Assembly: GCA_903859715.1 (NCBI GenBank)
Contig: CAIONS010000056.1
Span: 186,001 to 250,000 of the forward strand
Source of the DNA: an uncultured Opitutia bacterium
Lineage (GTDB): Bacteria > Verrucomicrobiota > Verrucomicrobiia > Opitutales > Opitutaceae
DNA: 64,000 bases
Direction of reading: 5' to 3'
Numbering within the stretch: the stretch's first letter is position 1; every line of letters starts with the position of its first letter. A program made the position numbers and the translations under genes. The notes below the pieces were generated by a model, which did not search any database, had not been told where the DNA came from, and saw nothing but the letters and a program-made list of their open reading frames with translations. Shown here piece by piece: positions 41,005 through 53,713 of this stretch.

Positions 41005-41375
41005 ATGGAGAAGGGGAGCAAAATTGAAGGGTTCGAGGATCTGGTGGTTTGGCAGTTGGCGATTGAGCTGGCGGCGGAGATCTACCGTCATTTTGAACCG
41101 ACGCGGGATTTCACCCTGAAAAACCAGATTCAACGGGCGGCCATTTCGATTTCATCTAATATCGCCGAAGGCTATGAACGGGGTTCGAACAAGGAGTTTG
41201 TGCAGTTCCTTTATTACGCCAAGGGCTCGTGCGGTGAGGTTCGCTCTCAAGCCCAGTTGGCCATGCGGGTCAAATTGCTGACAGAAGCACGGCTCAACCG
41301 ATTATTGCCGCATCCAAGACACTTTCCGCCAAGCTAGGCGCCTATATCAACGTCAGGGTCACCCAATTCACGTGA
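41005..41375 (+). pseudogene. Four-helix bundle (IVS-type) protein, frameshifted
   Basis: The first ~100 codons encode a typical four-helix bundle / 23S rRNA intervening-sequence protein: FEDLVVWQLAIELAAEIYRH, then LKNQIQRAAISISSNIAEGYERGSNKEF, then FLYYAKGSCGEVRSQ. The annotated frame then ends in RLLPHPRHFPPS (stop at 41337), whereas the family should continue with a last helix. That helix is present one frame over (IAASKTLSAKLGAYI, ending at the TGA 41373..41375). Loss of one base near 41304..41309 (GATTATTG for an expected GATTAATTG) explains it. The function of these small proteins is unknown. This one separates an ABC permease from its ATPase. Confidence 0.75.
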
Positions 41376-42793: not shown

Positions 42794-43447
42794 ATGTCGA
42801 ACATCTTTCCCAAGTCGGCGAACAAGCTTCCGCTCCAGATCATCACCTATCTGGTGGTCCTCGGCGGGGTGGTCACGGCGGGCGCGACCTATTACATGAC
42901 GCCGAAGTACACGCGCGTCGGCTATGCGCCGGTCCAACCGGTGCCTTACAGCCATGCCCTGCACGCCGGCCAGCTCGGCATCGATTGCCGCTACTGCCAT
43001 AGCAATATCGAGAAATCGGGCGTGGCGAACCTGCCTACGGCGCAGACGTGCATGAACTGCCACAACCAGGTGAAGAAAGACAGCCCCCTGCTCGCCGTGG
43101 TGCGCCACAGTTTCGAGACCGGCGAGGCGGTGCCGTGGGTGAAGATCCACCAGACTCCGGATTACGTCTATTTCAACCACGCCATCCACGTGAACCGCGG
43201 CGTCAGCTGCGTGGAGTGCCACGGCAAGATCAACGAGATGGACGTCGTGGCGCATGCGAAGCCGCTGAGCATGGGTTTCTGCCTCGATTGCCACCGGGAT
43301 CCCGCGAGCCACGTCCGCGAAAAGGCCGACATCTATAACCTCGACTCACAGACGATCGCCGAGAAGTCCGGCTTCGCCGCGGCGCACAAATTCCTGACCG
43401 ACCGGAACATCAAACCTCCGCAAAGCTGCTCCGGCTGCCATCGATGA
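42794..43447 (+). CDS. actA: Alternative complex III subunit ActA, pentaheme cytochrome c
   Basis: This 217-residue protein has an N-terminal membrane helix (IITYLVVLGGVVTAGATYY) and five CxxCH heme motifs: CRYCH, CMNCH, CVECH, CLDCH and CSGCH, the last at the C-terminus. Extra histidines in SHALHAG and NHAIHVN are placed to be distal ligands. ActA is the multiheme cytochrome of the quinol:cytochrome c (or oxidase) oxidoreductase that replaces the bc1 complex. It carries electrons from the ActB iron-sulfur domain at the periplasmic face. It overlaps actB by four bases (ATGA). Confidence 0.95.
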   Translation: MSNIFPKSANKLPLQIITYLVVLGGVVTAGATYYMTPKYTRVGYAPVQPVPYSHALHAGQLGIDCRYCHSNIEKSGVANLPTAQTCMNCHNQVKKDSPLLAVVRHSFETGEAVPWVKIHQTPDYVYFNHAIHVNRGVSCVECHGKINEMDVVAHAKPLSMGFCLDCHRDPASHVREKADIYNLDSQTIAEKSGFAAAHKFLTDRNIKPPQSCSGCHR

Positions 43448-46400
43448 AACGCAAATTTCACCATCCCGAACCGTCTGAACGCGAGCTGTCCGGCCCGAAG
43501 TACTGGCGCAGCCTCGACGAACTGGCGGCGACGCCCGGTTTCAAGGCGCAGCTGGCGCGCGAATTTCCCGAGGGTTCCTCCTCGATCGAGGGCGTGGATC
43601 GCCGGCAGTTCACCAAGATCATGGCGGCGTCCTTTGCGCTCGGCGGCCTCGGTCTCGCCGGCTGCCGCCGGCCGGAGCAATACGTGCTGCCCTACGGCAA
43701 GTCGGTCGAGGGTGTGATCCAGGGCCTGCCGCGGTATTTCGCCACGGCGATGCCGCTGCGCGGTTCGGCCATCCCGCTGCTCGCGGAAACCCATCAGGGC
43801 CGCCCGACCAAGCTGGAAGGCAATCCGTCCTACGCGCCCCACGGCGGTGCCAGCTCGTTGATCGCGCAGGCCTCGGTGCTCGACCTCTACGATCCGGATC
43901 GTGCGACGACGCACACGCTCAAGGGTCAGGCCGCCACGTCGGCCCAGATCGCCGCGCTGCTGGCGGATCTCAGCAAGAAGTACGTTGCCGCGGGTGGGGA
44001 AGGGCTCGCCTTCCTCGCGGAGGAATCCAGTTCCCCCACGCGCGCCCGCCTGCTGGGTCAGCTGAAGGATAAACTTCCGCGCGCCATCTGGGCCGAATAC
44101 GAGCCCGTGCAGGACGAGCCGCCGGTCGCCGCGGCGCGCGCGAGCTTCGGCCAGGACGTCAAGCCGCTCTACCAGTTCGCCAAGGCCAAGCGCATCGTCA
44201 GCATCGATGCCGATTTCTTCCACGCCGAGGCCGGCAGCCTGTTTTACTCGCGCGAATTCGCCAAGGGCCGCCGCGTGACGAAGAAGGAAGACCCGATGAA
44301 CCGCCTCTACGTCGTGGAGAGCGGCCTGAGCCTGACGGGCAGCATGGCGGACCACCGCCTGCGTCTGGCGAGCAGCCACATGCTGGCCTTCGCGGCCGCG
44401 CTGGCGAACAAGGTCATGGGCGCGTCCCCGCTGGATGCGCTGAGCCAGGGGCTCGATTTCAAGGACAAGGACAAATGGCTCGAGGCCTGTGCGCAGGACC
44501 TGCTCGCCCATCGCGGCGAGTGTGTCGTGGTCGCCGGGGCTCAGCAGCCCGCGGCCGTGCACGCCATCGTGTATGCGCTGAACGCCTTCCTCGGCAACGT
44601 CGGCTCGACGATCGATTTTGTTTCCGTCCCGGCCGCGACGGCTTCCGGCATCGTGGCCCTGGCCGCCGCCATCAAGGGCGGTTCGGTCAAGACGCTCATC
44701 GTGCTCGGCGGCAATCCGGTTTACAACGCGCCGGCCGATCTTGACTGGAGTGCGCTGCAGAAGTCCGTGCCCGAGGTCATCCGCTACGGCTACTATGCCG
44801 ACGAGACGTCCGCGCTGGCCGGCACGCAGATCGCCGCCACGCACTATCTCGAATCCTGGGGCGATGCGCGCACGGTGGATGGCACGATTGTGCCGGTGCA
44901 GCCGATGATTCTGCCGCTGTTCAACGGCCTGACAGAGATGGAAGTCCTGGCCCGCCTGCTCGGCGAAACCCAGACGGATCCTTACGCGCAGGTTTATACC
45001 ACGATCACCGCACTCAGCGCCGGGGAGGATGCAGCGAAGTTCTTCCGCCAGTTCCTGCACGACGGTTTGATCGCGGGTTCCGCCTACGCGAAGGTGGCGG
45101 TCGGTTACGATCCCAGCGGTGCCAACGCGCTGTTCAAGACGACGCCGAAGTTCGAGGCGCTGTCCGGCAGCAAGCTCGAGGTCCGCTTTGTCACCGACCA
45201 CAAGATGGACGACGGCCGGTTCGCCAACAACGGCTGGCTGCAGGAAGTCCCTGATCCGGTGACCAAGATTTCGTGGGACAATGCGATCCTGATCAGCCCG
45301 CGCCTCGCGCGCGAACTGGGGATTTATCCAAAGGGGTCGTTGCTGCAGATCGCGCGCGTCGAGAATGACGCCGATGCCGCCGGCAAGGAAGACGCCCACA
45401 TCGCCGAAATTTCGATCGGTGGCCGCAAGATTCGCGGCCCGGTGCATATCCAGCCCGGCCTGTCCAATTACACGCTCATCCTCCCGCTGGGCTACGGCCG
45501 CACGGTTTCGGGCCGCGTGGGCAAGGATGGTGGCTTCAGCGCCTATCCGCTCCGGACGAGCGAGGCTCCGCATTTTACCACGGGTGCGACCATTACGCTG
45601 ACCGGTGAGCGCATGCTGCTCGCCAGCACCCAGGTGCATTGGTCCATGGAAGGCCGCGACATCATCCGCGAAGCCAATTTCGAGGGCCCGGAGAGCTACC
45701 GGGAGAACCCGGCCTTCGTGAAGGAAGTCGGCATGGAGGCGGAGACGCCTTCCGTTCTGGGTGAAGTCGGCGAGGCGATGACGCCGGCCGAGCGCGCCAA
45801 GGAAATCCCGCGCGGTGAGTCGCTGTACTCGACCCCGAAATTCGACGGCGTGCACCAATGGGGCATGTCAATCGACCTCAACACCTGCACCGGTTGCAAC
45901 GCGTGTGTCATTGCCTGCCAGGCGGAGAACAACATTCCGATCGTCGGCAAGGACCAGGCGCTCCGCGGCCGTGAGATGCACTGGATCCGGCTCGACCGCT
46001 ACTATTCCGACGGCCTGGCCGACGGCGCCGCCTTTGGCGGTGAGGGCAACCACCAGCTGCCCGAGGATCCGCAGGTTTCGCTGCAGCCCGTGGCCTGCCA
46101 GCAGTGCGAACTCGCCCCATGCGAGACGGTCTGCCCGGTCAATGCCACCGTCCATGACGACGAAGGCCTCAACGTGATGGCCTACAACCGCTGCATCGGC
46201 ACCCGGTACTGCGCGAACAACTGCCCGTACAAGGTCCGCCGGTTCAATTTCTTCGACTTCAACCAGCGCCAGCTCGACAGCCTGTACCTCGGACCGCTCG
46301 GTCCGCACGGCATGCCGGAGCTCGTGCAGATGGTGAAGAATCCCGAGGTCACCGTGCGCATGCGCGGCGTGATGGAGAAGTGCACCTATTGCGTGCAACG

Positions 46401-46805
46401 CATCCAGAACGGGAAGATCGAGCACAAGGTGAAGATGGCGCAGGCCGGCCAGCCCGGCGACGTCGTCGTCCCCGACGGCACGATCAAGACCGCCTGCCAG
46501 CAGGTGTGCGCGGTCGAGGCCATCGTCTTTGGCAACATCCTCGACGACCGGAGCGCGGTTTCGCAGGCCAAGCTCCGGGAGCAGGACTACCAGCTGCTCG
46601 GCTATCTCAACACCCGCCCGCGGACGTCGTACCTCGGCAAGTTGCGCAATCCCAATCCCAAGATGCCTGATTACTCCGCGCTGCCGCTCAGCCGCATCGA
46701 GCATAACAACAAGAACCATGTGCCGAGCTCCGGCGGGAAGGAAGAGAAGGGCGAGCCGGGCCACGCCCTGCTGGATGCCGCCCAACGTTTTGGAGGACTT
46801 AGCTA

Positions 46806-46806
<1 letters not shown>
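43444..46806 (+). CDS. actB: Alternative complex III subunit ActB, molybdopterin-like/iron-sulfur protein
   Basis: This 1120-residue protein has an internal Tat motif RRQFTKIM (53-60) followed by a hydrophobic stretch and AGCRRP. Residues ~80-780 resemble molybdopterin oxidoreductases; in characterised complexes this half binds no Mo cofactor. Residues ~800-1050 form the ferredoxin-like half, with cysteine clusters [11 protein letters not shown] (from C815), [31 protein letters not shown] and CTYCVQRI...CQQVC, enough for three 4Fe-4S and one 3Fe-4S cluster as in the family. It passes electrons from the quinol site in ActC to ActA/ActE. The protein has the fused full length, not the split form. 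Confidence 0.95.
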
Positions 46807-48239
<1,433 letters not shown>

Positions 48240-48245
48240 TCCGCC

Positions 48246-48779
48246 ATGGCCACACCCAATTACGGATTGATTGCCACGTTCGACTCCACGCCGGACCTGT
48301 ACCATGCGGCGGAGAAGGTGCGCGATGCCGGCTACAAGAACTGGGACTGCATCACGCCGTTCCCGGTCCACGGCCTGGACAAGGCGATGGGCTTGCGCCG
48401 TTCCACCGTGCCGCGCATCTCGCTCGCGGGCGGCATCACGGGCTTTTGCACCGGCATGTCGATGATCTGGTGGACGGGCGCTTACGACTACCAGATCACG
48501 GTGGGCGGCAAGCCGCTCTTCAGCCCGATGTTCGCCTTCCCGGTCAGCTACGAGCTCACGATTCTCTTCACGGCCTTCGCGACGATCGGCGGCATGTTCT
48601 TCCTGAACGGCCTGCCGATGCACTATCACCCCGTGCTCAAATACGACCAGATCAAGCGCGGCATGGACGACACCTTCTTCATCGTCATCGAGGCGCGCGA
48701 CCCGCGCTTCAACCTCGCCAACACCAAGGCCCTTCTCGAGCAGGCCGGTGGCAAGGAAATCAAGGAGCTGGAAGCCTGA
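48246..48779 (+). CDS. actD: Alternative complex III subunit ActD (DUF3341)
   Basis: This 177-residue protein with two membrane helices at ~60-82 and ~100-125 has the DUF3341 layout: a soluble N-terminal part (LIATFDSTPDLYHAAEKVRDAG, WDCITPFPVHGLDKAMGLRRST), the helices with ITGFCTGMSMIWWTG, and YHPVLKYDQIKRGMDDTFF before a helical tail. ActD anchors the peripheral subunits to the membrane part of complex III. It follows actC by 6 bp and precedes actE by 3 bp. Confidence 0.95.
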   Translation: MATPNYGLIATFDSTPDLYHAAEKVRDAGYKNWDCITPFPVHGLDKAMGLRRSTVPRISLAGGITGFCTGMSMIWWTGAYDYQITVGGKPLFSPMFAFPVSYELTILFTAFATIGGMFFLNGLPMHYHPVLKYDQIKRGMDDTFFIVIEARDPRFNLANTKALLEQAGGKEIKELEA

Positions 48780-48782
48780 GCC

Positions 48783-49418
48783 ATGCGCAACGTCTACTTA
48801 GTCACCGCGTTTCTGGTTGTGCTCACGGTTTCCGTGTTCGGGCTCCGGGGCACGAAATTCACGCATCCGCCGATGGACGTTTTCCCCGAGTGGGCGTTCC
48901 CCGGCATGAAGCGCCAGCCGAAGCCGCGTCCGCAGGGTGAGAGCACCTTCTTTGCCGACGGCCGTGCCGACCGTCCGATTCCCGCCGGGGTCGTGTCGCG
49001 CGATCCGCTGCGCAACGATTCCGCCCTCTACGAAGGCAAAGCCGCCGACGGCACCTTTCTCCGCGGGTTTCCCGCGGCCATCACCGTGGACGCAAAACTC
49101 ATGGTGCGCGGCAAGGAGCGTTACACGATCTATTGCTCGCCGTGTCACGGTGGAGTGGGGGATGGCAACGGCATCACAAAACAGTACGGCATGGGCGCGA
49201 CGCCCACCTATCATGACCCGCGCCTGCGCGCCATGGCCGAGGGCGAGATCTTCAACACCATCACCAACGGCAAGGGCAATATGCAGTCTTACGCGGACAA
49301 GGTCCTGCCCGAGGACCGCTGGGCCGTGATCCTTTATGTCCGCGCCCTCCAGCGCGCACAGACCGGCACCGTGGCGGACGTTCCCGAGGCCCATAAATCG
49401 GAGCTTGGCATCAAATGA
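48783..49418 (+). CDS. actE: Alternative complex III subunit ActE, monoheme cytochrome c
   Basis: This 211-residue protein has an N-terminal hydrophobic anchor (YLVTAFLVVLTVSVFGL) and one heme motif, CSPCH, in YTIYCSPCHGGVGDGNG, with a likely Met ligand in GNMQSYADKV. It lacks the lipobox of some ActE proteins; here the helix likely anchors it. It receives electrons from ActB/ActA and hands them to an oxidase. The MDVFPEWAFPGMKRQPKPR segment after the anchor is characteristic of the family. Overlap with actF is four bases. Confidence 0.93.
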   Translation: MRNVYLVTAFLVVLTVSVFGLRGTKFTHPPMDVFPEWAFPGMKRQPKPRPQGESTFFADGRADRPIPAGVVSRDPLRNDSALYEGKAADGTFLRGFPAAITVDAKLMVRGKERYTIYCSPCHGGVGDGNGITKQYGMGATPTYHDPRLRAMAEGEIFNTITNGKGNMQSYADKVLPEDRWAVILYVRALQRAQTGTVADVPEAHKSELGIK

Positions 49419-50689
49419 GCACTCACGCTGCAACCGCTCCCGCCGCCTTGGCCACCGATTCGACTTCATCGTCCGCGGCCACCAAGGCCCTCATCATCGG
49501 CATCGCGGGCCTTGTCCTGACCGGCGCCGGCATCGCGCTTTCGCCCAACAAGCACGGCCCGGTGATGTCCTATCTGGTCGGCGTCACCTATTGGACCGCC
49601 ATTGCGATCGGCATGCTGATGATGGTGATGATCCACCACATCGTCGACGCCTCCTGGTCGGTCGTCATCCGCCGCCAGTGGGAACACGGCCTGGCGGCCT
49701 TCAAGTGGCTGTTTGTGCTGTTCCTTCCCCTGTTGGTTCTGTCCTTGCTCAAGCCTGGCTACATCTGGCCGTGGATGGACCTGAATCATGTGCTGCACGG
49801 GCACGAGACGGTCGGCTCTGACGTGCTCTACCAGAAGAAGTCCGGCTTTCTAAATACGCCCTTGTTCATGGGCATGACAGTAGGATTTTTCATCATCTGG
49901 GTCTGGCTGTCCGCCCGCCTCCGCAAGGCCTCGTTCACGCAGGACTCCGATGGCAATGCCGCCTGGACGAAGACCAACCGCGTTAACTCGGCCATGGGCC
50001 TGCCGCTCGGCGCGCTCACGCTGACCTTTGCCGCCGTCTACTGGGTAAAGAGCCTGGAGTACCACTGGTTTTCCACGATGTACGGCGTCTGGTTCTTCGC
50101 GAACTGCATGCGCGGCGCGCTTTGCTGCGGCGTTGTGATCATGGTCTGGCTTTACCGCCGCGGGGATTACAAGGGCATCCTCAACACGAATCACTTTCAC
50201 AGTATCGGCCAGCTGATGCTCGCCTTCACGGTGTTCTGGGCCTACGTGACATTCTCCCAGTATTTCCTGATCTGGAACGCCAACGTCCCCGAGGAAACCT
50301 TCTGGTACAACCTGCGCGAGCTGAACCATGACGGCACGACGAACCAGTGGTGGTATGTCGGTCTCGTCCTGGTCTTCGGCCACTTCGTGATCCCGTTCTG
50401 CGCACTGCTGTCATATCGCTTCAAGGTCACGCAGCACATCATCCGCCGCATCGCCTTCTGGGTGCTGACGGTGATCCTGGTCGACATGTGCTACAACATC
50501 CTGCCGGCGCTGAAGGATGTGCACGGTGACTCGCTGCCGTTCCTCTCGATCAATCTCCTGTGGGTGCTCACCTCCGTCATCGGTGTCGGCGGTGTGTGCA
50601 TCTGGGCCTATCTCCGGAGCCTCCCGACCACCAAGCTGATCCCGATCCGCGATCCGCGCATCCGCGAATGCCTGACTCACCATGAGTGA
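49415..50689 (+). CDS. actF: Alternative complex III subunit ActF, NrfD-like
   Basis: This 424-residue membrane protein with ten predicted helices is shorter than but related to ActC. Family features include GVTYWTAIAIGMLMMVMIHH, WSVVIRRQWEHGLAAFKW and FTVFWAYVTFSQYFLIWNAN. A conserved acidic/His pattern in the HHIVDASW region may be part of the proton path proposed for ActF. The N-terminal ~25 residues are Ala/Ser/Thr-rich and variable. It overlaps the 98-residue gene by eight bases. Confidence 0.93.
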   Translation: MSTHAATAPAALATDSTSSSAATKALIIGIAGLVLTGAGIALSPNKHGPVMSYLVGVTYWTAIAIGMLMMVMIHHIVDASWSVVIRRQWEHGLAAFKWLFVLFLPLLVLSLLKPGYIWPWMDLNHVLHGHETVGSDVLYQKKSGFLNTPLFMGMTVGFFIIWVWLSARLRKASFTQDSDGNAAWTKTNRVNSAMGLPLGALTLTFAAVYWVKSLEYHWFSTMYGVWFFANCMRGALCCGVVIMVWLYRRGDYKGILNTNHFHSIGQLMLAFTVFWAYVTFSQYFLIWNANVPEETFWYNLRELNHDGTTNQWWYVGLVLVFGHFVIPFCALLSYRFKVTQHIIRRIAFWVLTVILVDMCYNILPALKDVHGDSLPFLSINLLWVLTSVIGVGGVCIWAYLRSLPTTKLIPIRDPRIRECLTHHE

Positions 50690-50978
50690 TTCTCCCTCCA
50701 AGTCCGCTCCGCTCGTGACGATCCTGACCGTGCTGGCCGGCTTCGCGCTGTTCCTGCTGGTTGTCTACTATCTCTACGTGCCGCTGCAGACCGGCCCTTA
50801 TACCGATGACGGCATCCACACGGCCGCGGTGCGGAAGGAAAACCTGGCCAAGCTGCGGGAAAAGCAGGCGAAGCAGGCGGCGAGCTACGGTTGGGTCGAC
50901 CAGAAGACCGGCGTCGTCCAGATCCCGCTGGAGCAGGCGATGGACCTCACCGTGAAGAACTACGCGTCGAAGCACTAA
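50682..50978 (+). CDS. Small single-helix membrane protein between actF and the CcoN-like gene
   Basis: This 98-residue protein has one helix (VTILTVLAGFALFLLVVYYL) and a soluble tail of ~65 residues containing GWVDQKTGVVQIPLEQAMDL. Proteins with this WVDxxxGxVxIPxxxAM tail are often found near complex III or SCO/cytochrome oxidase genes in several phyla (recalled, not searched). It overlaps actF by eight bases and precedes the CcoN-like gene by 19 bp, so it is co-expressed with both. It may be a small structural subunit of the complex III or of the downstream module. No cofactor motif is present. Confidence 0.75.
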   Translation: MSDSPSKSAPLVTILTVLAGFALFLLVVYYLYVPLQTGPYTDDGIHTAAVRKENLAKLREKQAKQAASYGWVDQKTGVVQIPLEQAMDLTVKNYASKH

Positions 50979-50997: not shown

Positions 50998-52422
50998 ATG
51001 ACCACCGCACCCTCCGCCGCCACGCCGGCCGAAGTCACCGAGATCGACGCCTCCGCGCGCTGCTCGCTGCTTCTGTTGCTCGGTTCCGCGCTCCTCTGGC
51101 TCGTCGTGAGCGGCGCGCTGGCGCTCGTGAACCTCGTGCAACTGCACACGCCGTCGTTTTTGGCGGACTGCCCGCTGCTGACATTCGGCCGCACGCAGGC
51201 CCTGCAGGAGACGACCTTCATCTACGGCTGGGCCGCCAATGCCGGCCTCGCGGTCGCGCTCTGGATTCTGGCCCGCCTCGGTGGTTCGCCGCTGCGCTCG
51301 CTGAACTGGGTTAGTGCCGGTACCGTATTCTGGAATCTCGCGCTGACGCTCGGCCTCGTGGGGATCGCCACGGGTGACGCGATGTCGAATGCCTGGCTGC
51401 ACCTGCCGCGCTACGTCCTCCCGATGATGCTCGTCGCCTACGGCACCATCGCTGTGGCGGGCGTGCTGGCCTGGACCGGCCGCCGTCAACAAATGACCTT
51501 TGCCTCGCAATGGTATGCGGTGGCCGCGCTGTTTCTCTTTCCGTGGATTTTTTCCGCCGCCCAGGTGATGCTCGTCTTCACGCCGGAGCGCGGTGTCCTG
51601 CAGGCCTTGGTGGCCGGCTGGTTTGTGCAGGGAGCCTGGACGCTCTGGCTGGCGCCGCTGGCCCTGGCCTCGGCCTATTACCTCGTGCCAAAAGTCAGCG
51701 GCCGGGCGATCCCGAGCTATGATTTTGCCGCGCTCAGTTTCTGGACGCTGCTGGTGGTCGGAGCCTGGACGGGTGGCCGTCATTTCATCGGCGGTCCGAT
51801 TCCGGCCTGGGTCGCCTCGATTGCCGGCGTCTCCTGTGCGCTACTGCTGTTCCATTACATTGTCGTGGGTATCAACCTCCGCGGGGCGTTCTCCGGCGGT
51901 GGCAGCACGGTACTGAAGTTCGTCGCTTTCGGGCTCGGCGCCTACGTGCTGGGCGGCTTCCTGGACGCGCTGACCGCGATCCGGGGTGTGGCCCTGATCA
52001 CGCAGTTCACCTATTTCAGCACCGCCCAGTCGCAGCTCGCGCTGAACGGGGCGTATTCGATGATGATGTTCGGCGCGATTTACTTCCTGGTACCCCGCAT
52101 TACGGGTCAGGCGTGGGCCTCCTCGGCCCTGATCCGCGCCCACTATCTGGCGGCGATCATCGGCACCATCGGTCTTGTCGTCGCGCTGGCGATGGCGGGC
52201 TGGGTTCAGGGCCATGACTTGAACGACCCGGCGGTGACATTCGCGGCGATCGCGACGCATACCAAAACCTGGCTGCAGATCGCGACGGCGGCGCAGGCAC
52301 TGCTGTTGCTCGGCAATCTTCTCCTGCTCGGCCACCTGCTCAAATCGGCCGCCTCCAGTTACCTCGCGCCGGCGAACGCGACCTTCCGCCAGCCTCCGAC
52401 GATGGAGGCGTCTGTGTCATGA
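50998..52422 (+). CDS. CcoN-like protein (cbb3 oxidase subunit I homologue) lacking heme and copper ligands
   Basis: This 474-residue protein with ~12 membrane helices has clear subunit I landmarks: LTFGRTQALQ after helix 1, GWFVQGAWTLWLAPLALASA, YYLVPKVSGR, WTGGRHFIGGPIPAWV, and IYFLVPRITGQAW. Aligned by eye to cbb3 CcoN, the residues that should be ligands are changed: Q70 (low-spin heme His), Q211 (CuB His of YGHN), R261 (CuB His), Q344 (heme b3 His) and Q346 (second heme b His). Only H262 is kept, and the cross-linked Tyr is G255. It should bind no heme or copper and cannot reduce oxygen. The c-type subunits encoded next keep their heme motifs. It is intact, with no frameshift, so selection for a structural or transport role is implied. 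Confidence 0.88.
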   Translation: MTTAPSAATPAEVTEIDASARCSLLLLLGSALLWLVVSGALALVNLVQLHTPSFLADCPLLTFGRTQALQETTFIYGWAANAGLAVALWILARLGGSPLRSLNWVSAGTVFWNLALTLGLVGIATGDAMSNAWLHLPRYVLPMMLVAYGTIAVAGVLAWTGRRQQMTFASQWYAVAALFLFPWIFSAAQVMLVFTPERGVLQALVAGWFVQGAWTLWLAPLALASAYYLVPKVSGRAIPSYDFAALSFWTLLVVGAWTGGRHFIGGPIPAWVASIAGVSCALLLFHYIVVGINLRGAFSGGGSTVLKFVAFGLGAYVLGGFLDALTAIRGVALITQFTYFSTAQSQLALNGAYSMMMFGAIYFLVPRITGQAWASSALIRAHYLAAIIGTIGLVVALAMAGWVQGHDLNDPAVTFAAIATHTKTWLQIATAAQALLLLGNLLLLGHLLKSAASSYLAPANATFRQPPTMEASVS

Positions 52423-53051
52423 AAAACGGCTTCACTTTCTTCCTCGGCCTTTTCCTGGCCCTCGCGATGGCGTGGGCGGGCATCGTGCTGGGCTCCCATG
52501 CCCAGCTCGGCCACCTCGCCCCTTATTTCGATGAGAACGAGGGCAAGGCCTTCCCGGAACGCCTCCCCGGCATCGCTGCGCGCGGCCAGCTGGTTTACCA
52601 GGACTTGGGTTGCGCGGCCTGCCATACGCAGCAGGTGCGCCGGCCCGACTTCGGCAGCGACAAGGCCCGGGGTTGGGGCGACCGCCAGAGCGTGGCCCGC
52701 GACTATGTGAGCCAGCCGCATGTGCAGCTCGGCGAGAGCCGCATCGGCCCGGATCTGGCCAACTTCGGCGCCCGCCCGCATGCGGTGGATGCCGATCGCC
52801 TGACGCAGTATCTCTACGAGCAGCACGGCGGCATGCCGTCCTACCGCTTCCTTTTTGAAACGCGCAAGATTACGGGTGAGCGTTCCGCCATCGCGCTCAA
52901 GGTCCCGGTATCCGCGGGCATGGAGGTTGTGCCCACGCATCGCGTGCAGGCCTTGGTGGCCTATCTGCAGAGCTTGAACAACGTGTACGAATATCCCGAG
53001 GCCCGCCCGGTCGCACCGGTGGCTGAGAAGAAGGAGGGTGCGTCCAAATGA
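52419..53051 (+). CDS. CcoO-like monoheme cytochrome c
   Basis: This 210-residue protein has an N-terminal membrane helix (FFLGLFLALAMAWAGIVL) and a CcoO-type domain: LVYQDLGCAACHTQQVRRP (heme motif C65/C68/H69), GESRIGPDLANFGAR, and GGMPSYRF with the likely axial M139. The CHTQQVR sequence is diagnostic for cbb3 subunit II. It overlaps both neighbours by four bases (ATGA). It is the redox-active partner of the ligand-free CcoN-like protein, so electrons may enter it from ActE or ActA. Confidence 0.9.
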   Translation: MKNGFTFFLGLFLALAMAWAGIVLGSHAQLGHLAPYFDENEGKAFPERLPGIAARGQLVYQDLGCAACHTQQVRRPDFGSDKARGWGDRQSVARDYVSQPHVQLGESRIGPDLANFGARPHAVDADRLTQYLYEQHGGMPSYRFLFETRKITGERSAIALKVPVSAGMEVVPTHRVQALVAYLQSLNNVYEYPEARPVAPVAEKKEGASK

Positions 53052-53713
53052 GCGACCAGAACCCCATCGACCCGCGTCAGGAGCAAGCCGGCGCCTCGGA
53101 CGAGAGCCTGCTGGCCGCGCATGAGAAGCTGCTCGGCAAGAAGCCGGAGGACGGTGCGCATTACAAGCTGCTCCCGCTCGCGCTGCTCTTCGTGTTCAGC
53201 GGCCTGATTTTCTACGCCGGCACCTACCTCAATCACTATTCCGGCCACTACGATGCGAGCATCTTCAACGAGAATGCCCATCCCAGCAACGCTGCGGCTG
53301 AGACGGTGAAGATCGACCCGATGGTGCTGGGCAAAAAGAATTTCGAGCTGGTCTGCGCCACCTGCCATCAAGTCACGGGTCTGGGCGTGCCGGGAGTTTA
53401 TCCCCCGCTGGCCGGTTCCGAGTGGGTGAACGGCTCCGAGGAGCGCGTCATTCGCATCGTGATCTACGGCCTCAAGGGCGACGTGAAGGTCGAGGGCACC
53501 AATTATAATGCGGCGGCGATGCCGGTCATCGGCAAGGTCACCGGCTCAGGCTACAACTGGAGCGATGAAAAGATCGCGGCGGTCCTGACGTACGTGCGGG
53601 CTTCGTTCGGCAACAAGGCCCCGGCGATCACCGCCGAGAAGGTGGCCGAGATCCACGCCAAGGAAGGCGACCGCAAGGAGTGGTCGCAGGAAGAGCTGCT
53701 CAAGATCCATTGA
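53048..53713 (+). CDS. Membrane-anchored monoheme cytochrome c, CcoP-like position
   Basis: This 221-residue protein has a soluble N-terminal segment, one helix (~40-60, KLLPLALLFVFSGLIFYAGTY), then a cytochrome c domain with CATCH (C103/C106/H107) in NFELVCATCHQVTGLGVPG, PPLAGSEWV, and Met ligand candidate AAAMPVIGK. It occupies the place of CcoP but has one heme where true CcoP has two, and the PPLAGSEWV segment is typical of monoheme oxidase-linked domains. It is the last gene of the act operon, followed by a terminator at 53734..53761. Confidence 0.88.
   Translation: MSDQNPIDPRQEQAGASDESLLAAHEKLLGKKPEDGAHYKLLPLALLFVFSGLIFYAGTYLNHYSGHYDASIFNENAHPSNAAAETVKIDPMVLGKKNFELVCATCHQVTGLGVPGVYPPLAGSEWVNGSEERVIRIVIYGLKGDVKVEGTNYNAAAMPVIGKVTGSGYNWSDEKIAAVLTYVRASFGNKAPAITAEKVAEIHAKEGDRKEWSQEELLKIH

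Follow-up and report, generated by a model that had tools for sequence, protein, structure and literature searches.

A 64,000-nucleotide stretch from an uncultured Opitutia bacterium (contig CAIONS010000056.1), here called the window, includes the genes for alternative complex III (ACIII) and, downstream of them in the same operon, a gene for a homologue of CcoN, the subunit I of cbb3 oxidases. Subunit I of the heme-copper oxidases is the textbook catalytic core of respiration. In the CcoN-like protein, here named NL (50998..52422, + strand), six of the seven canonical cofactor residues are replaced. The next two genes encode OL, a CcoO/FixO-like monoheme cytochrome c (52419..53051, +), and PL, a monoheme cytochrome c (53048..53713, +). 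We consider it probable that this trio derives from an ACIII-linked cbb3-like oxidase in which the catalytic subunit became a redox-dead scaffold for two c-type hemes that relay electrons from ACIII to another oxidase. The missing ligands were noticed in a first-pass annotation made from the letters of the window; the observation stands and extends wider than first noted, to 100 loci of which 72 have a ligand-poor NL.

The coordinates, frames and NL residues reported in that annotation were all confirmed on the window sequence. phmmer aligned NL with five CcoN chains at E-values of 1e-17 to 3e-12, and in this alignment H60, H207, Y251, H257, H258, H347 and H349 of 3mk7, which we take to be the heme and copper ligands and the cross-linked Tyr, correspond to Q70, Q211, G255, R261, H262, Q344 and Q346 of NL. 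Both heme sites lack their His residues, with Q70 and Q346 at the two His positions of the low-spin heme b and Q344 at the single His position of heme b3. The three His of CuB and the cross-linked Tyr are also missing (Q211, R261 and G255), and H262 alone is kept. Alignment to structurally known CcoN was the check named beforehand, and it places no His at six of the seven sites. With six of seven active-site residues replaced, NL cannot be a terminal oxidase of known chemistry, as had been claimed.

By fold, NL is nevertheless predicted to be a CcoN. The predicted model of NL, with a mean predicted local distance difference test score (pLDDT) of 94.3, superposes on 3mk7 with a Z-score of 48.6 and 1.8 Å over 441 residues (VIA), and its best structural matches are cbb3 subunits I (Foldseek E-value 1e-18, template modelling score 0.88); individual residues were assigned from the sequence alignment and not from the structure. 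Thus, the NL of the window is no oxidase by the tests that define one, and a CcoN by its predicted fold. The expectation that automatic annotation would call it a terminal oxidase held in part: Pfam COX1 does fire, with 130 bits against a cut-off of 34.8, but the NCBIfam ccoN model reaches 89, below its cut-off of 583. The published accounts of verrucomicrobial methanotrophs taken up below do name an ACIII-adjacent gene a cbb3 oxidase.

It is scarcely credible that the missing ligands are an artefact of misalignment, misassembly or pseudogene formation. Loci L001–L009 do come from metagenome-assembled genomes, and L009 differs from the intact state at one site only, which could be an error. 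However, four MAFFT settings (localpair, auto, globalpair and genafpair) gave identical letters at the seven sites for every NL, which rules out misalignment as the cause. Similar patterns recur in related genomes, some of them single-contig, and an error in the window is unlikely given that 15 of the 16 other rows of its clade agree with it at four or more of the seven sites. A register control on 71 ligand-poor NLs (L009 was left out) found a His within three residues of the emptied site in 0/47 cases for H60, 3/61 for H207, 23/71 for H257, 1/49 for H258, 6/70 for H347 and 6/68 for H349; H258, the neighbour of H257, is kept in 23 of the 72 ligand-poor NLs. The ratio of nonsynonymous to synonymous substitution rates (dN/dS) is 0.025–0.287 in 13 pairs of ligand-poor NLs (dS being saturated in two, L007/L008 and L115/L116) and 0.046–0.135 in the four computable pairs of eight intact NL pairs. 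The open frames and purifying selection (0.03–0.29 in round figures) rule out a pseudogene or frameshift and bear out the earlier suggestion of conserved loss rather than decay.

A first scan of genome contigs had returned nine relatives, all from Verrucomicrobiota, and a later profile search covered that phylum. Matches at E ≤ 1e-20, with up to four candidates scored per genome, were found in 122 of 387 genomes and were a mixture of NLs and ordinary CcoNs. One hundred matches were taken with their neighbourhoods (92 NL, eight CcoN), together with 20 comparison regions. The final set of 100 NL loci consists of the survey NLs, the window and its nine relatives, minus L043, which is on the same contig as L004, and L066 (G313), which is on a truncated contig though all seven residues are present there. 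L012 and L013 are copies of the window, and L141_CcoN is without the first site in the main alignment. As nine of the ten rows of the search profile, A1, were ligand-poor (L009 counted as one), the survey may favour ligand-poor NLs.

All seven residues (HHYHHHH) are present in 28 of the 100 NLs, here called intact, and the other 72 have lost between one and seven: 20 keep none, 44 keep one, five keep two, two keep three and one keeps six. The last is L009, in which only H207 has changed, to Arg, and which may represent either a first step of loss or a sequencing error. L063 and L081 retain both His of the low-spin heme and have lost the other five residues, a possible one-heme intermediate. 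Together these states suggest an order of dismantling, from intact (28 loci) through loss of one CuB ligand (L009) and retention of the low-spin site only (L063 and L081) to loss of nearly all or all of the residues (the other 69). With the gene set recurring in 100 loci and like letters in clade relatives, the loss is more than chance.

The replacement letters differ from clade to clade, reading QQGRHQQ in that of the window and AHSSRRW, HSAQKFI, SESSHFV, FEAADVQ and others elsewhere. Replacement by Gln at most sites, to which the first-pass annotation had given weight, characterises the clade of the window (17 rows), but in other clades Ala, Ser, Phe, Arg, Lys, Ile, Trp and further residues are found; similarly, homologues with the same His-to-Gln pattern beside act genes, which were to be collected, were found in the window's clade, and other clades have other patterns. 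One alternative is that NL has been rewired and now binds another kind of cofactor, or one heme held by new ligands. Indeed, a new membrane-helix His, H286, is present in 17/17 rows of the window's clade where intact NLs have Pro, H262 is kept in 14 of those 17 rows, and in L063 and L081 the two ligands of the low-spin heme are exactly what remains. However, no ligand pair common to the ligand-poor clades was seen at the canonical sites. We give rewiring a small chance, and NL is more probably free of any other cofactor.

Among columns with ≥95% conservation in intact NLs, 34 survive in ≥90% of the 71 ligand-poor NLs, 48 in fewer than 40%, and 63 lie in between (40–90%). The 34 include G77, W89, N113, P137, P182, W183, L216, F337 and W373, positions at which ordinary CcoN has another commonest residue, while the 48 include the ligands and nearby residues, among them R67, W207, N212, T219, R429 and G433. 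As judged from their sequences, ligand-poor NLs keep the fold and the features of the family but not the pocket. The cofactor-free proton channel that had been offered as a second possible role did not hold up. The predicted fold is kept, in keeping with a channel, but the polar positions of the intact family, T219, S244, Y255 and S280, survive in only 0–30% of the 71 ligand-poor NLs, which disfavours this role and makes it very improbable.

Whatever the state of NL, the heme motifs of its partners are retained, with CxxCH present in OL in 100/100 loci and in PL in 98/98 loci where PL was found. The window conforms to this, as had been claimed. Its OL (C65-C68-H69) belongs to the FixO family (Pfam FixO, 6e-10), matches PDB CcoO chains and has Met at the distal position, as expected of a monoheme CcoO. 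PL (CATCH; Pfam Cytochrom_C, 1e-9) has a single CxxCH and stands in place of a diheme CcoP. The distal Met of PL is present in 26/26 intact and 71/72 lost loci. These features bear on another explanation, a structural ratchet in which assembly or stability of ACIII came to need NL while it was still an oxidase, and the ligands decayed where another oxidase took over. NL would then have no role in transferring electrons, with the hemes of its partners being leftovers. Replacement residues that differ by lineage are as expected of relaxed constraint, the dN/dS of ligand-poor NLs reaches higher than that of intact ones, and the distal Met of OL is often lost. On the other hand, leftover cytochromes would not need to retain their CxxCH motifs, as both OL and PL do in ligand-poor loci, or the distal Met, as PL does in 71/72 of them, and we regard both parts of this explanation as unlikely, though deserving of some weight.

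The gene cluster is itself well conserved. actF and OL share a stretch with NL in 100/100 loci and PL does so in 98, and the complete set of actA–F, OL and PL is found in 83. Eleven of the 17 incomplete loci run into the end of a contig or stretch, L078 and L079 are without a PL match, and L130 gave no hit to the ActD query, yet Pfam ActD matches there. In L088, L090 and L091 (G187, G190 and G199) the order is actE-actF-NL-OL-PL-cox without actA–D, and ActD is on another contig, which splits the ACIII operon in this genus. ActD was found in 135 of the 387 genomes, and 92 of the 94 genomes of the window's class with an ActD match of >140 bits carry NL, the exceptions being G008 and G366, in which ActD is near a contig end. 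No NL was found at E ≤ 1e-20 in 28 ActD-bearing genomes outside that class, or in 13 genomes of genus g37 (family f10) with weak ActD matches (37–71 bits). A second PL-like monoheme cytochrome c gene lies between actF and NL in 13 loci (L095, L096, L098, L100–L102, L106, L113–L116, L127 and L129).

A further check was for another full oxidase in the window's genome (G000, 97.8% complete), and two more COX1 genes were found. Contig 37 encodes a caa3-type oxidase, in which CoxA adjoins a CoxB with CxxCH, and contig 18 a fused CcoNO in which the seven residues are all present; a bd oxidase was looked for in G000 and not found. All 64 genomes of the survey whose NL is ligand-poor, G000 among them, have another COX1 match of >300 bits (that of G381 is a fragment at a contig end), in a census that counts COX1-family matches, not ligand-checked genome by genome. 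Intact NLs, to go by their residues, are probably working oxidases. Searches of G001 (99% complete) and G146 (98%) turned up no heme-copper oxidase gene other than the intact NL and no bd oxidase, which suggests that the intact NL works as an oxidase.

In the scheme that we favour, NL-OL-PL would have begun as a cbb3-like oxidase, with NL as the catalytic subunit and OL and PL as its c-type cytochromes, and this module would have joined the operon of ACIII in an ancestor belonging to the same class of Verrucomicrobiota as the window. Several lineages, including the window's, would then have lost the heme and copper ligands of NL and neighbouring pocket residues, keeping it as a folded membrane subunit. 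The most likely present role of NL would be that of a redox-inert scaffold, docked on ACIII and keeping the OL and PL hemes in place. Electrons from quinol would pass from ActB via ActA (ActE) to OL/PL, and from there to a separate caa3 oxidase, entering at its cytochrome c domain; alternatively, they may leave OL/PL for the fused cbb3 by way of a soluble cytochrome c. The role of docking scaffold for c-hemes, already suggested in the first-pass annotation, is the best supported, with the docking itself inferred from the conserved gene cluster.

Several points weigh against this scheme. Its support comes from sequence and predicted fold, not from protein. Another COX1 is also present in 26 of the 28 genomes with an intact NL, so the oxidase census barely separates the two states. 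coxA lies on the NL strand within the fetched stretch in 28/72 lost vs 1/28 intact loci, and on the opposite strand in one intact locus, counts that are lower bounds since some stretches are short; the loci are related, and this contrast is not independent evidence. In L088, L090 and L091 actA–D lie apart from actE-F-NL, so that a single operon is not indispensable. In other phyla ACIII delivers electrons to oxidases with no help from a module of this kind, and in Flavobacterium johnsoniae even ActE can be dispensed with for this (PMC8552683). Finally, the distal Met of OL is present in 28/28 intact but only 46/72 lost loci, being replaced by Cys (15), His (4), Lys (3), Arg (3) or Ala (1), and because of this loss the OL heme may be retuned, or less constrained, in some clades. 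The loci with Cys at this position are L095, L096, L098, L100–L104, L106, L109, L110 and L113–L116, and the replacement suggests a changed heme ligand.

Comparison of the trio with cbb3 oxidases revealed the likeness of fold (Z-score 48.6 to 3mk7), the N-O-P gene order and a monoheme CcoO-like partner. It differs in lacking six of the seven cofactor residues in NL, in the single CxxCH of PL vs the diheme CcoP, and in being set in an ACIII operon. When an intact NL was used to query plasmids with tblastn, 382 records were returned, all with <60% identity, and megablast with an intact NL stretch gave no plasmid match. Five of the nine top hits were examined (L163–L167, from Paraburkholderia, Cupriavidus, Azoarcus, Paracoccus and Indioceanicola), and their N-O-P cassettes are the closest outside relatives among the hits examined, sharing 46–49% identity with the intact NL of L060 and having one CxxCH in OL (5/5) and in PL (4/5). 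Unlike the NL loci, these cassettes are free-standing, with no act gene found in the 19-kb stretches, and all five retain the seven residues.

In a tree of NL, the ACIII-linked NLs group in a single clade that excludes 29 ordinary CcoNs from the phylum, and the five plasmid-borne proteobacterial relatives are sister to this clade, not within it. Since these relatives all keep the seven residues and no act gene turned up beside them, the simplest reading is that the intact state is ancestral. The NL tree needs four changes between intact and lost states, three of them forced by starred branches, and a reduced tree without L009 (37 rows, with 14 of the 71 other lost rows) needs three, all forced. 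Approximately unbiased (AU) tests on the NL gene rejected a single loss, with p-values of 0.009 (all 72) and 4e-6 (reduced set) for all lost NLs as one clade. As regain of seven residues is implausible, we count at least three losses on the NL tree. The tree of ACIII genes (99 rows; L008, with too little sequence, was left out) needs nine changes, eight of them forced. Without regain, the losses number four on the NL tree (three without L009) and 14 on the ACIII tree, the last figure depending on a root chosen on the methanotrophs. By these trees the residues were lost more than once, and the simplest starting point is a working ACIII-linked oxidase.

The two trees conflict inside the window's family. 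While window-type NLs form one clade (17 rows) on the NL tree, the ACIII tree sets L047, L059, L069, L082 and L119 among intact loci, and placing nine lost rows of the family (thinned) in one clade was rejected on the ACIII genes (p-value 0.003). Either further losses or exchange of the NL gene would account for this conflict. Many ligand-poor NLs are on long branches, which are a known source of false joins, and the NL tree is to be read with caution. Three genomes of this family have a further, deeply branching CcoN with all seven residues (L143–L145). A broader history, in which the ACIII of the class absorbed a whole cbb3-like oxidase as a permanent module and a working III–IV supercomplex gave rise, on several independent occasions, to a scaffold devoid of cofactors that is bridged by c-hemes to an A-type oxidase, has in our view about an even chance of being correct.

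Direct transfer from ACIII to an oxidase over a c-heme bridge is found in the ACIII-(c)aa3 supercomplexes of Rhodothermus marinus and F. johnsoniae. The direct donor to caa3 in R. marinus is ActE; the link to aa3 in F. johnsoniae, where ActE is dispensable, is thought to be an additional c-domain of ActA (portions of PMC5928083 and PMC8552683). The bridges in these complexes are ActE, subunit IIc or an ActA domain, and the same portions mention no CcoN-like subunit. By analogy, we propose that OL and PL form the c-heme bridge and that NL is their membrane mount. A search of titles and abstract openings turned up no report of a ligandless CcoN in an ACIII operon. The proposed change is of a known kind, a catalytic subunit turned structural, and here the forms with and without the active site share a gene context and can be compared. 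If correct, this would be a natural experiment on what the subunit I fold does besides chemistry and on the evolution of respiratory supercomplexes, and one that is directly testable in Verrucomicrobiota.

Five of the genomes (G042, G054, G072, G152 and G265) contain pmoA-like genes and represent verrucomicrobial methanotrophs, and their NLs read SESSHFV or ADAAHQT. In PMC6688271 and PMC8498564, the ACIII-adjacent gene of such methanotrophs is described as a cbb3 complex IV, which the former links to high O2 affinity. This "cbb3-type oxidase" has the same neighbourhood as the NL of the five genomes, but the papers treat it as complex IV while the NLs of the five genomes, to which the comparison is confined, are ligand-poor. 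If NL is counted as a cbb3 oxidase of high affinity, conclusions on O2 affinity may be misleading. The COX1 gene that might have been a second C-type oxidase in G042 and G265 is a NorB; one of the two 250–267-bit COX1 genes of G042 (L171) is without a ccoN match, and the COX1 gene L169 has no NCBIfam match. A nos cluster (nosD and nosZ; L140:12893-17133) separates actF from NL in L140 (G072). This resembles the published arrangement in Methylacidiphilum caldifontis IT6, in which nos genes lie inside the ACIII cluster (part of PMC11102522).

The ACIII genes of the window, all on the + strand, are in the order actABCDEF that is expected of an ACIII operon. actA (42794..43447) encodes a pentaheme cytochrome c (Pfam multiheme families; five CxxCH), and actB (43444..46806) the molybdoenzyme-like subunit with 4Fe-4S (phmmer matches to chain B of 8k9e, 9e-260, and of 6f0k, 9e-225). 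These are followed by actC, for the NrfD-like membrane subunit (46806..48239; Pfam NrfD, 2e-27), actD (48246..48779; Pfam ActD, 9e-65), actE, for a monoheme cytochrome c (48783..49418; Pfam Cytochrome_CBB3, 4e-11; one CxxCH), and actF (49415..50689; phmmer match to ActF of 6f0k, 6e-55). With ActB and ActF matching chains of solved ACIII structures, the claim that the trio shares one operon with actABCDEF proved real. Between actF and NL is orfX (50682..50978, +), a 98-amino-acid open reading frame (ORF) with no Pfam or NCBIfam match that is recognisable in many, not all, related loci. actF overlaps orfX, NL overlaps OL and OL overlaps PL. Elsewhere in the window, an ORF of the 23S rRNA intervening-sequence protein family (PF05635) is found at 41005-41337, flanked by genes for an FtsX-like permease and an ABC ATPase.

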